Part shown: piece by piece, positions 149-6,262 of the stretch
Position numbering within the stretch: position 1 is the stretch's first letter
How the letters are laid out: each line of letters starts with the position of its first letter
NCBI GenBank assembly: GCA_020061125.1
Contig: JAGUYV010000098.1
Span: 1 to 8,237, forward strand
From: a bacterium
Lineage (GTDB): Bacteria > UBP15 > UBA6099 > DSWB01
Direction of reading: 5' to 3'
Length of the DNA stretch: 8,237 nucleotides
Notes under the pieces: model-generated
What the model was told of the DNA's origin: nothing
What the model saw: only the letters and a program-made list of their open reading frames with translations
Databases searched by the model: none
Translations under genes and position numbers: made by a program

Positions 149-1810
149 TCAGCCCATGGACATATCAATCAGATCGTTGATCACCTGCGCCGAGGAATTG
201 GCCTGGGCGATCATGGACTGCGTGGACTGGTTCAAAATCTGCGACTTGGTGAGGTTGACCGTTTCCACGGCCATGTCCGCATCGTTGATTCGGGACCGGG
301 ACGCGGACAGGTTAATATATTCGGCCTGCAGATCGTCAATGATGTGCTGGATGCGCAATTCCTGAATTCCCAGCACCGCGCCGTAGTGCGCAACCATCTC
401 CTCGGCCCGGTCGCAGCTCTCGATGCTGTCCCATGCGCGCTGGTTGCTGGTCACATTGGCGAAGCACAGATAATCCTGCGCCCCCGCCGCGAGCCAGAAG
501 GTGGATACTTCCATGTATTGCATGCTGTCTGGCCCCACCTGTGAATTCCACTGGTAATGCGGCCCATAGTTCACCGGATTGCTGGTCCAGCCCAGACCCG
601 ATTTTTCCACGCTGTTGTCCAGGCCCTGGCTCATGTACGCCAGCGAGAACGCATCCGTCTTTGTTTCAAACTGCGCGAAATTGTTGTTGTATGAAGTGCC
701 GAGCACATTGAGCACGGCCTGGTCCCAGTCGTTTCCGGCCTGAACCTGGAGCGCGATGTCGTGCAGGGCGCGCGTGCCGTGCAAGGCCGTGATGGCCTGC
801 GCGGCAAGGTAGCATTCCGCATACTCGGCGCTGCTGCCGGGTGCGCTTGTGAGGCCTCCGCCCACAGCGGCGGTCACCGCGGCCTCGCTCCCGTTGATCC
901 GCAGATCGCCTTCCTGGGACACATAGCTGGCCATCATTTCCTGACCCCATGCGCTGCCCGCGATTCCATTGCTCACAAGCACGGCATGCGTCATCTCGTG
1001 CGCAATCACCATCTCGCGCGTGAATCCGTGGATGCTGGGATTGGACCCGACATTCGCGTTCAGCGGTCCGCCGGTCCCATCCGGATCCAGAAAATCAAAC
1101 ACATCAATGTTGATGGTCATGGCGTTCAGGCCGCCGCCGCCCGTGGCCAATATCGTGCCGGCCCCGTCAATATTGGTGAAATTAATCGTCAGAGTTGCGC
1201 TCGGATCCGGCGCCAGCCCGAGCATTCCGTACACTTTATAAATAGAGTCCTCCACCACGGACACCACATGGGCGGTCATTTCGTCGTACTCGGCGTCGCC
1301 GGGAACCGCGGGCGGCGCAGGCCCCGCCCAGAGATGGTTCACTGTGACATTATTTTCATTGATGAGGTGAAATTCGGATGTGCTGCTGGTGATGTGCTTG
1401 GAGTTGAAGGTGGTGTTGGTGCCGACCTGGTTGATGGCGCCCTTGAGCGAGTCAATTTCGCTCTGCAGCCTCGTGCGGTCCGCCGCGGTGAGGGTCGCCT
1501 CGTTTGCGCCGCGCACGCACAGGTCGCGGATGCGGTGCACCATCTGTGTGACTTCCTCGACCGCTCCGCCCGCGGTGCGGATCATGTTGATGGTGTCCTG
1601 CGCGTTCTGGATGGCGACCGACAGCCCGCCGAGGCGCGCGCGCATGCCCTGTGATATGGCCAGCCCGCTGGGATCGTCCGCGCCCTTGTTGATGCGCAGC
1701 CCGGACGACAGCCGCTCCATGGCCTGGTTCGTGCTCAAACGGTTCAGGCGCAGGTTGTTCAGCCCGGTCATCGCAGAAATATTCGTGTTGATTGTGCCGA
1801 ATGACGCCAT
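149..1810 (-). CDS. Flagellinolysin: flagellin with an embedded zinc metallopeptidase domain
   Basis: The 553-residue product is a flagellin whose surface-exposed D2/D3 region is replaced by a peptidase. Residues 1-140 are a standard N-terminal D0/D1 domain (INTNISAM, ERLSSGLRIN, DDPSGLAI, near FNSK). Residues 423-553 are the C-terminal D1/D0 domain (SRINDADMA, then MIAQAN). Between them, about 165-400, lies a gluzincin-like domain with HEMTH at 271-275: His271 and His275 would bind zinc and Glu274 is not the catalyst, Glu272 is. Glu291, in AWGQEMMASY, is the probable third ligand. Published flagellinolysins have this layout and assemble into proteolytic filaments; activity here is inferred. 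No signal peptide is expected, since flagellin exits through the flagellar type III system. The ATG at 1810 has GAGG seven bases upstream. No other flagellar gene is visible. Four cysteines (98, 333, 449, 466) are unusual for a flagellin. Confidence 0.93.
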   Translation of the reverse strand: MASFGTINTNISAMTGLNNLRLNRLSTNQAMERLSSGLRINKGADDPSGLAISQGMRARLGGLSVAIQNAQDTINMIRTAGGAVEEVTQMVHRIRDLCVRGANEATLTAADRTRLQSEIDSLKGAINQVGTNTTFNSKHITSSTSEFHLINENNVTVNHLWAGPAPPAVPGDAEYDEMTAHVVSVVEDSIYKVYGMLGLAPDPSATLTINFTNIDGAGTILATGGGGLNAMTINIDVFDFLDPDGTGGPLNANVGSNPSIHGFTREMVIAHEMTHAVLVSNGIAGSAWGQEMMASYVSQEGDLRINGSEAAVTAAVGGGLTSAPGSSAEYAECYLAAQAITALHGTRALHDIALQVQAGNDWDQAVLNVLGTSYNNNFAQFETKTDAFSLAYMSQGLDNSVEKSGLGWTSNPVNYGPHYQWNSQVGPDSMQYMEVSTFWLAAGAQDYLCFANVTSNQRAWDSIESCDRAEEMVAHYGAVLGIQELRIQHIIDDLQAEYINLSASRSRINDADMAVETVNLTKSQILNQSTQSMIAQANSSAQVINDLIDMSMG

Positions 1811-3682: not shown

Positions 3683-6262
3683 ATGAATTTTCAAAAGGCA
3701 TGGAAAAACTATATTCTGCCCGTGACCGGGATCGCACTGCTGTCCACGGCGCTGCTGTTCGCGGTGCACCGCCAGCAGGCGTGGACCGACAAGCCCGCGT
3801 GGCTGGCCCGCGTGCTCGAGCCGCTGAACACAATCGAAGCCATGGAACTGAAAACCCTGGACCTGCGGTTCATCAAGCGCGGAGGCTACCAGTACCCGGA
3901 CCCGCAACTGGCGGACCGCGTCAAGGTCGTGGCCGTGGATTCGGAGAGCGTGGCCCAGGTGGGGCGCTGGCCCTGGCCGCGCGGGGTCATGGGCCGTCTT
4001 GTGGACTCGGTGTGCGGCGACCCGTTCTCGGAAATTGACGACAGCGGCTGGCGCGACGAAAAGGCCGCGCCCGCACAGGCCCAATCCGATGATGATGAGG
4101 GGTGGGAGGACGCCGAAGACGAGGACGACGGCTGGGAGGATGTGGACGAAGACGACGAGTCCGGCGACGAGGGTTGGGAGGATGTTCCCGACGATCAGGA
4201 AGCGGACGACGACGGCTGGGAGGATGTTCCCGGCGACGAGGAACAAGACGAGGCTCTCGCGGACGCGGATGATGATGACAACGGCGACGAAGAGCCGGAA
4301 ACCGCGGATGCAGACGACGAAGAAGAAGAGACCGCAAAACAAAATCCCCCGAAGGAATACGGCAAACACCGCGTGCTGGGCATAGACGTTCTGCTGGACC
4401 GCGAGGAGCGCGACTACAGCGCGTTCCTGCTCGGCCAGTCCGCCATGATGGACCCGAATAAAATGGACGCCATGGCGCGCTACGCCATCAGCCGCTGCGA
4501 CCGCGCCGTGCTCATCGCGCTCATGAAGTTCCCCTCCGGCCCGGACGCGGATGTGGGCACCGGCGACGAATACAAAGTTTACAAGGACAGGGACGGCGGC
4601 AAGGTTATTTACAATATGCCGCTCAAGACCTTCCAGACGGACAATGTGGTCATGGGCTACGCCAATGTGGAGCCGAGCCGCTACGACGAACGCGTGCGCA
4701 AGGCGCGGCTCTACTATCAACTCGGAGGCCGCACCGTGTACTCGTTCGCCCTGGTGAATGTGGCCGCGTTCGCGGGTGTGCCTCTCAAAGACATCAAGGT
4801 CAGGCCCGGACTGGTCACGGTCGGCAAATACCGCATCCCCACCGACAGCCTCGGCCGCATTTACATTAATTATTCGGGCTACAAGGGCAAGGTGTACGAC
4901 CCCGCGGGCAAGAAAGGGTTCCCCATCGCCGAGGCCACGCAGATTTCCGCCATTGACATCATGAAAACCCCGGAAACCATTCCGTTCACGCTCAAGGGCA
5001 ATTTCATTTTCCTCATAGGCGTCACGGACCCGGAAATGCGCGACATCCTGTACACGCCGCACGGGTTCCTGCCCGGGGTGGATGTGCACAAGGCCACCAT
5101 AGACACAATTCTGCAACAGGATTTCCTGTCCGATACGCCCGCGTGGAAATTCGTGCTGGCGCTGCTGATCGGCTCGGCGCTGGTGGGCGGGTTCGCGCTG
5201 TACCGGATCTGGGCGGGCGCGGCCGCGCTGGGCGCATTCAGCGTGGGGTACTGGTTCTTCGCCATGGCCGCGTTCAAGAGCGGCGGCGTGATCTACCCGG
5301 TCGCTCCCGTGCTTCTGGCCCTGCCCGTGGCCATGGTCTGCGGCATCCTCTACCGCAATTTCGTGGTGGACCGCGAGAAAAACGCGGTCAAGAACATCTT
5401 CAAATCCTATGTGGCGCCGCATGTGCTGGCCGAACTCATGGAAAACCCCGAGGACCTCAAGCTCGGCGGCAAGAGCAGCAAGGTGTCCATCCTGTTCTCG
5501 GACATCCGCGGGTTCACCACCATCAGCGAGCAGCTCAACGCGGACCAGCTCATTTCCGCGCTCAACCACTACCTCGAAAACATGACCGAGATCGTGCTGG
5601 ACAACTCGGGCATGATTGACAAGTTCATCGGGGACGCGGTCATGGCCATCTGGGGCGCGCCCGTGCCGCACGAGGACGACGCCGCGCGCGCCGTGCGCGC
5701 GGCCCTCAAGATGCAGCCAATACTCGATCGGATCAATCCGCACATCAAGCAGATCACAGGCCTGGAGTTCGCCATCGGCGTGGGCGTGAACACGGGCGAG
5801 GCCAAGCTCGGCAACATCGGTTCCAAGGGCAAGCTCGATTACACGGTCATCGGCGACGCCGTGAACCTGGCCTCGCGCCTCGAAGGCCTCACCAAGCAGT
5901 ACGGCGCGTTCCTCATCATCAGCGAATTCACCTACGAAGAGGTCAAGGACCAGTTCGAGTGCCGCTACCTGGACGATGTCATGGTCAAGGGCAAGGACAA
6001 GCCCGTGGGCATCTATCAGGTCCTGGCCGAAAAAGGGCAGCTCGACGACGCGCGCAAACGCAACATGGACCACTTCCACAGGGGCCGCGAGCTGTACAAG
6101 GCCATGAAATTCGACGAAGCCATCGCCGAGTTCGAGAAAGCCATCGAGATTGACCACGACGACAAGGCCAGCAAGATGTACGCGCACGAGCGCTGCCCGC
6201 ACTACCGGGACAATCCGCCGCCCCAGGGCTGGGACGGCGCGTTCCGCATGACCACGAAGTGA
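3683..6262 (+). CDS. CHASE2-domain receptor adenylate cyclase (class III) with acidic insert and TPR-like tail
   Basis: The predicted 859-residue membrane protein makes cAMP from ATP. Order: transmembrane helix 11-28; extracytoplasmic CHASE2 sensor about 55-480 (VVAVDSESVAQVGRWPWPR, VLGIDVLL, later IFLIGVTDPEMRD and TPHGFLPGVDVHK are hallmarks); three transmembrane helices about 488-556; class III cyclase domain about 595-780; one TPR-like helix pair about 798-826; a tail containing RC and PPPQGWDG, common in this family. Catalytic residues are intact: metal aspartates Asp606 (FSDIRGFT) and Asp651 (FIGDAVMAIWG), adenine-selecting pair Lys647/Thr721 (class IIIb type, so ATP rather than GTP), and Asn728 and Arg732 in VNLASRLE. 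An acidic repeat insert (136-217) splits the sensor before its VLGIDVLL strand. The ligand is unknown. The tail could recruit a partner. It has its own promoter. Confidence 0.95.
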   Translation: MNFQKAWKNYILPVTGIALLSTALLFAVHRQQAWTDKPAWLARVLEPLNTIEAMELKTLDLRFIKRGGYQYPDPQLADRVKVVAVDSESVAQVGRWPWPRGVMGRLVDSVCGDPFSEIDDSGWRDEKAAPAQAQSDDDEGWEDAEDEDDGWEDVDEDDESGDEGWEDVPDDQEADDDGWEDVPGDEEQDEALADADDDDNGDEEPETADADDEEEETAKQNPPKEYGKHRVLGIDVLLDREERDYSAFLLGQSAMMDPNKMDAMARYAISRCDRAVLIALMKFPSGPDADVGTGDEYKVYKDRDGGKVIYNMPLKTFQTDNVVMGYANVEPSRYDERVRKARLYYQLGGRTVYSFALVNVAAFAGVPLKDIKVRPGLVTVGKYRIPTDSLGRIYINYSGYKGKVYDPAGKKGFPIAEATQISAIDIMKTPETIPFTLKGNFIFLIGVTDPEMRDILYTPHGFLPGVDVHKATIDTILQQDFLSDTPAWKFVLALLIGSALVGGFALYRIWAGAAALGAFSVGYWFFAMAAFKSGGVIYPVAPVLLALPVAMVCGILYRNFVVDREKNAVKNIFKSYVAPHVLAELMENPEDLKLGGKSSKVSILFSDIRGFTTISEQLNADQLISALNHYLENMTEIVLDNSGMIDKFIGDAVMAIWGAPVPHEDDAARAVRAALKMQPILDRINPHIKQITGLEFAIGVGVNTGEAKLGNIGSKGKLDYTVIGDAVNLASRLEGLTKQYGAFLIISEFTYEEVKDQFECRYLDDVMVKGKDKPVGIYQVLAEKGQLDDARKRNMDHFHRGRELYKAMKFDEAIAEFEKAIEIDHDDKASKMYAHERCPHYRDNPPPQGWDGAFRMTTK
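4088..4333 (+). repeat. Acidic low-complexity insert with GWED repeats inside the CHASE2 sensor
   Basis: Codons 136-217 of the cyclase encode 51 Asp/Glu among 82 residues and no Lys or Arg. GWED recurs at 140-143, 150-153, 164-167 and 178-181 (spacing 10, 14, 14). The DNA is also repetitive: GACGACGGCTGGGAGGATGT is identical at 4124-4143 and 4208-4227, and TGGGAGGATGTTCCCG at 4175-4190 and 4217-4232, a 42-bp period. This indicates growth by tandem duplication. The segment should be disordered and lie outside the cytoplasmic membrane. Confidence 0.9.

Follow-up and report, generated by a model that had tools for sequence, protein, structure and literature searches.

The flagellin gene examined here, from an uncultured bacterium of the UBP15 lineage, holds the motif HEMTH in an insert of about 250 residues between its two flagellin cores, and the question was whether it encodes a filament subunit that is also a protease. 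The window, meaning the whole stretch of 8,237 nucleotides that was analyzed, was the entire contig C328 of genome G000, a fragmented metagenome-assembled genome (MAG; 4.1 Mb, 513 contigs, 78.8% complete). A preliminary description of this DNA had reported complete N- and C-terminal flagellin domains around a HEMTH peptidase. Pfam searches confirmed both domains, PF00669 and PF00700 at the two ends as in the definition of flagellinolysin, with the motif at residues 271-275; the strand, which the description had not given, was minus (Table 1). The other genes of the contig matched the Pfam families Cu-amine-oxidase-N, glyoxalase, CHASE2/cyclase, DUF2878, and glycosyltransferase. None of them is flagellar, and the gene was thus, as described, an orphan away from flagellar genes within this contig. 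This position is not diagnostic because the characterized flagellinolysin gene of Hylemonella gracilis also lies outside the flagellar cluster (PMC7643111), so that both genes have a non-flagellar neighborhood. The window contained no Rfam match and no tRNA. The CHASE2-cyclase protein (window 3683-6262) has TPR and an acidic insert, the latter encoded with three 42-base repeats at 4124-4251 (GWEDV-like).

Table 1. Features of the predicted protease-bearing flagellin gene in the window, followed by other insert-bearing flagellins of the same genome, which are located by contig.
Feature	Position	Strand	Evidence
Protease-bearing flagellin (predicted), whole gene with stop codon	149-1810	minus	ORF with ATG start, 553 aa; Flagellin_N and Flagellin_C over cut-off; 3 full-length orthologues
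N-terminal flagellin core, residues 7-142	1385-1792	minus	Pfam PF00669 Flagellin_N, E 5.5e-33, above curated cut-off
C-terminal flagellin core, residues 465-545	176-418	minus	Pfam PF00700 Flagellin_C, E 6.4e-16, above curated cut-off
Predicted gluzincin metallopeptidase domain, residues 148-402 (boundaries approximate, as modeled)	605-1369	minus	AlphaFold2 and structural matches
HEMTH, residues 271-275: proposed zinc ligands His271 and His275, proposed general base Glu272	986-1000	minus	Invariant in orthologues and in the Delongbacteria protein
Glu291, proposed third zinc ligand	938-940	minus	Aligns with Glu of classical flagellinolysin; His in G156 homologue
Ala294, 3 residues after Glu291 (compare ExxA of FliA(H))	929-931	minus	Motif in PMC5595980
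Tyr330, candidate transition-state tyrosine	821-823	minus	Kept in 6/6 aligned peptidases; role proposed from gluzincins in general
Possible weak sigma-28-type promoter, TCAGCAAT-N11-GCCGATAA	1968-1994	minus	Consensus scan, p ~0.02 vs random genome stretches
PD40 propeller flagellins	C422, C487		
vWA flagellins	C69, C189, C287, C433		
Flagellins with TSP3-like repeats and PD40	C423; C52 (cut off by contig end)		
Insert-bearing flagellins without Pfam name	C180, C299		

To characterize the insert, residues 148-402 were modeled alone by AlphaFold2 from a five-sequence alignment, giving a model of moderate confidence (pLDDT 73.2, pTM 0.78) in which helix 118-133 contains HEMTH and helix 140-151 contains Glu291 (model numbering). 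All 50 of the 50 entries listed by VIA-align for this model were gluzincin-type metallopeptidases; the best match listed was lugdulysin (M30) with a Z of 14.3 over 222 residues at 3.9 A, followed by M1 aminopeptidases and M9 collagenases with Z of about 11-12.5. The top Foldseek matches were clostridial collagenases, with probabilities of 0.97-0.99 but E-values of only 0.04-0.05. Clostridial collagenase had also been the template for the published model of flagellinolysin (PMC5595980). No Pfam peptidase family matched the window protein at E up to 0.1, and the insert, searched as a profile against PDB sequences, had chance matches only. The AlphaFold2 model of the whole protein was poor (pLDDT 54.8) and was used for the flagellin core only, which matched solved flagellins with a Z of about 16. 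A gluzincin metallopeptidase fold in the hypervariable region is part of the definition of flagellinolysin, and the predicted fold and its position agree with it.

The residues of the flagellinolysin motif, HExxH, the third-ligand Glu, and the hydrophobic-basement Ala three residues after it, were found as His271, Glu272, His275, Glu291, and Ala294. His271, His275, and Glu291 had been named earlier as likely zinc ligands, and the alignment, the conservation, and the predicted fold are consistent with that role; the same evidence supports the earlier proposal of a zinc protease, here predicted to be of the gluzincin type, in the exposed region of a flagellin. The motif surroundings were divergent, as the preliminary description had noted: the spacing from the first His to the Glu was 20 residues, versus 29 in FliA(H) (H233/E262; PMC5595980). 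In FliA(H), the active-site loop supplies calcium ligands (PMC5595980); the acidic residues DVFDFLDPD (from 236) upstream of HEMTH are conserved in the window protein, and the loop for the other calcium ligands is shorter.

The NCBIfam flagellinolysin profile NF033876 matched residues 115-388 (E 8.6e-23) with 81.4 bits, part of which stems from the flagellin core, against a cut-off of 205 bits, which is an NCBI naming rule and not the published definition of flagellinolysin. This score fits the earlier assignment to a known family as a divergent copy. NF033876 also matched C490 of G000, a non-flagellin peptidase with HELAH, and weak matches to this profile therefore reflect general gluzincin similarity. 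A classical flagellinolysin was present in genome G275 (238 bits, over the cut-off; His-to-Glu spacing 27) and showed 28% identity with the window protein; it was the only one over the cut-off among 386 sampled genomes, which makes the comparison thin. Its open reading frame (L141:1407-4931, 1175 aa) consists of two complete tandem flagellins, first the classical flagellinolysin and then one with a PD40 propeller, an arrangement that could be due to fusion or to a missing stop. As far as tested, the window protein would fall within the definition of flagellinolysin on sequence grounds.

Full-length orthologues were found in three of the six relatives of the same order (51-52% identity over residues 7-552), the order comprising seven genomes in the searched set with the window genome included; the gene was not found in the incomplete genomes G001, G005, and G006. 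Named records with the gene are bacterium UBP15_UBA6099, bacterium ADurb.Bin236, and isolate USMO_maxbin.112, and the viral contigs searched held no relative of it. His271, Glu272, His275, Glu291, Ala294, and Tyr330 were identical in all three UBP15-lineage orthologues, and the catalytic residues were also invariant in a Delongbacteria peptidase that is cut off by a contig end and without a flagellin N domain. Because the whole architecture recurs in three other genomes with invariant catalytic residues, chance does not account for the HEMTH motif. Among the three close orthologues, the dN/dS of the peptidase was 0.046, 0.029, and 0.064; the underlying nonsynonymous counts were small (2.5 to 8), and the values were therefore read only as a sign of strong constraint by purifying selection on the peptidase. 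Between the window gene and the orthologues, where synonymous sites are near saturation, dN was 0.44 for the peptidase, 0.40 for the flagellin N domain, and 0.79 for the C domain, and the protein conservation of the peptidase was accordingly similar to that of the N domain and higher than that of the C domain. As judged from these alignments, such conservation is not that of an antigenically variable outer domain.

A homologue in G156 (L128), whose phylum is represented by two genomes in the set, aligned over nearly the whole protein with 29% identity. It has His in place of the third-ligand Glu (DWGNHILANW), which indicated that this site can drift. In the tree of flagellin N and C domains, the four UBP15-lineage protease flagellins formed one group (95/89). 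A single clade of the scaffolds of all six protease flagellins was rejected by the AU test (p 1e-5), whereas a clade of UBP15 and G156 was not rejected (p 0.318), in a comparison with one classical member and with long branches, G156 among them. In the phylogeny against flagellinolysins that had been proposed earlier, the scaffold of the window gene did not group with the one classical member available. The simplest reading suggested by these trees is that related peptidases have come to sit on two or more flagellin scaffolds, either through domain transfer or through repeated insertion.

The genome encodes many further flagellins. Of the 21 Flagellin_N matches in G000, one is FlgL-like, and another two are probably the halves of a single gene split across C200/C379. 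The counts for the seven genomes of the order were 21, 15, 16, 11, 9, 7, and 16, and the 35 other sampled genomes with any match had a median of 3 and an outlier of 19 (hand tally), FlgL-type genes being counted in both tallies. The survey for a second, ordinary flagellin suggested in the preliminary description found at least six in G000, of about 280-300 aa. Ten open frames besides the window gene were flagellins with large inserts (Table 1), and the window gene is thereby one of at least 11 insert-bearing flagellins in the genome, a feature absent from that description. C287 and C433, which had no Pfam vWA match at E 0.01, were assigned to the vWA class by 31% and 44% identity to C189 and a DxTxS MIDAS motif; TSP3 in C423 and C52 was assigned by eye and because C423 resembles a relative that has a weak TSP3 match. 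Several insert classes recurred in other families: the C180 class formed one group (96/99), four of five C299-type proteins formed another (100/99), and vWA flagellins were present in three genomes. G014 (L151-L155) had 19 Flagellin_N matches; at least five of these carry inserts in which FG-GAP/VCBS-like DxNxDG repeats were read by eye.

Hook and P-ring genes co-occurred with the ordinary flagellins: on contig C51 of G000, an ordinary flagellin has FlgI, FlgN, FlgK, an FlgL-like protein, and FliW as neighbors. The presence of a P-ring protein is consistent with an external, not a periplasmic, flagellum. FlhA was not found in the incomplete genome G000, but five of the order's seven genomes have it. 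The weak sigma-28-type site is located some 180 bases upstream of the gene, and the three orthologues had better-scoring candidate sites at -176 to -179 (p 0.002-0.005). A strict site preceded the FlgL-like gene, and good sites were found before some flagellins only. Because the weights and spacings of the consensus scan were chosen by us and many regions were scanned, this evidence is suggestive only.

We consider it probable that the window gene encodes a flagellin subunit with a zinc-dependent gluzincin surface protease, exported and assembled probably as a minor subunit. It would belong to the flagellinolysin kind, in a divergent branch whose active-site loop is shortened, and to a set of differently decorated flagellins. 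The protein would be exported via the flagellar secretion system, and its D0/D1 halves would assemble into the filament together with the ordinary flagellins, so that the protease would face the medium and cut extracellular protein or peptides. His271, His275, and Glu291 would hold zinc, Glu272 would activate water, and Tyr330 would stabilize the transition state. Catalysis and assembly are proposed from family precedent: flagellinolysin activity was found in filaments and in recombinant protein, was sensitive to EDTA, and was lost on Glu-to-Ala replacement (PMC5595980, PMC7643111). The preliminary description had envisaged a filament built from this subunit as a protease array. This was probably too strong, because at least six ordinary flagellins in the genome make a minor subunit in a mixed filament likelier than a pure filament; a diluted array remains plausible. 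C. haemolyticum offers a comparable case, with flagellinolysin making up to about 10% (PMC5595980).

The insert might instead keep the peptidase fold and work as a structural or binding outer domain, affecting stiffness, viscosity, or adhesion, and not as an enzyme. The loss of the usual Glu ligand in the G156 homologue would agree with this, as would the common modulation of motility by outer domains in other bacteria (PMC8931119). Nevertheless, the four UBP15-lineage proteins retain every proposed catalytic residue across about 50% divergence, which binding alone would not require, and we regard a non-enzymatic role as unlikely. Export by the flagellar apparatus followed by release as a soluble protease, hardly polymerized, appears quite improbable: the gene lies away from flagellar genes and many other flagellins are available for the filament, but both flagellin cores are complete and conserved and the characterized relatives are found in filaments (PMC5595980). 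The single 8.2-kb contig of a fragmented MAG could also hold an assembly chimera or a decaying pseudogene. However, the frame is intact, collinear full-length orthologues occur in three other MAGs, and dN/dS among them is low; these orthologues led us to reject an assembly error or pseudogene in substance, and we give it very little credence.

Beyond the single gene, a flagellin subunit with a surface protease may belong to a wider system. Tentatively, and with some doubt, we propose that the filament of the UBP15 lineage is a general display scaffold, in which paralogous flagellins, each displaying its own conserved surface domain (protease, vWA with an intact MIDAS motif, PD40 propeller, TSP3-like repeats, and unnamed domains), co-assemble with ordinary ones, and one filament would digest, bind, and swim. 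Alternatively, expression of the insert-bearing flagellins could differ between conditions or between cells. Protease flagellins and diverse hypervariable-region domains have already been published, in a survey across species that includes vWA (PMC5595980); in the literature searched, there was no report of such an insert-bearing repertoire within single genomes. What this analysis adds is the divergent branch, the apparent second scaffold, and the repertoire found per genome. With this gene, the range of protease flagellins would include a candidate lineage that is uncultured and in which the active-site loop diverges; as the AU test suggests, protease domains occur on more than one flagellin scaffold. 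Insert-bearing flagellins are unusually numerous in the order, and several of their classes are kept between families; this repertoire makes it testable whether filaments are multi-functional surfaces as well as propellers.

Among known systems, peptidase M30 (lugdulysin) and the gluzincins M1 and M9 gave the best structural matches of the domain model, whereas the searches of Pfam (E up to 0.1) and of PDB sequences gave no sequence match between them and the window protein, and they are not flagellins. Giant flagellins share with it a large insert at the exposed flagellin position; the inserts of published ones have no similarity to enzyme domains (PMC6248924). The closest likeness is to flagellinolysin (FlaMP), represented by FliA(H) of Clostridium haemolyticum and HgrFlaMP of H. 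gracilis, which likewise has a gluzincin in the flagellin hypervariable region and has HExxH, the downstream Glu ligand, and ExxA in common with the window protein. The window protein differs from FliA(H) in the shorter loop that gives calcium ligands, and from flagellinolysins in that it comes from an uncultured lineage and is apparently built on another flagellin scaffold.
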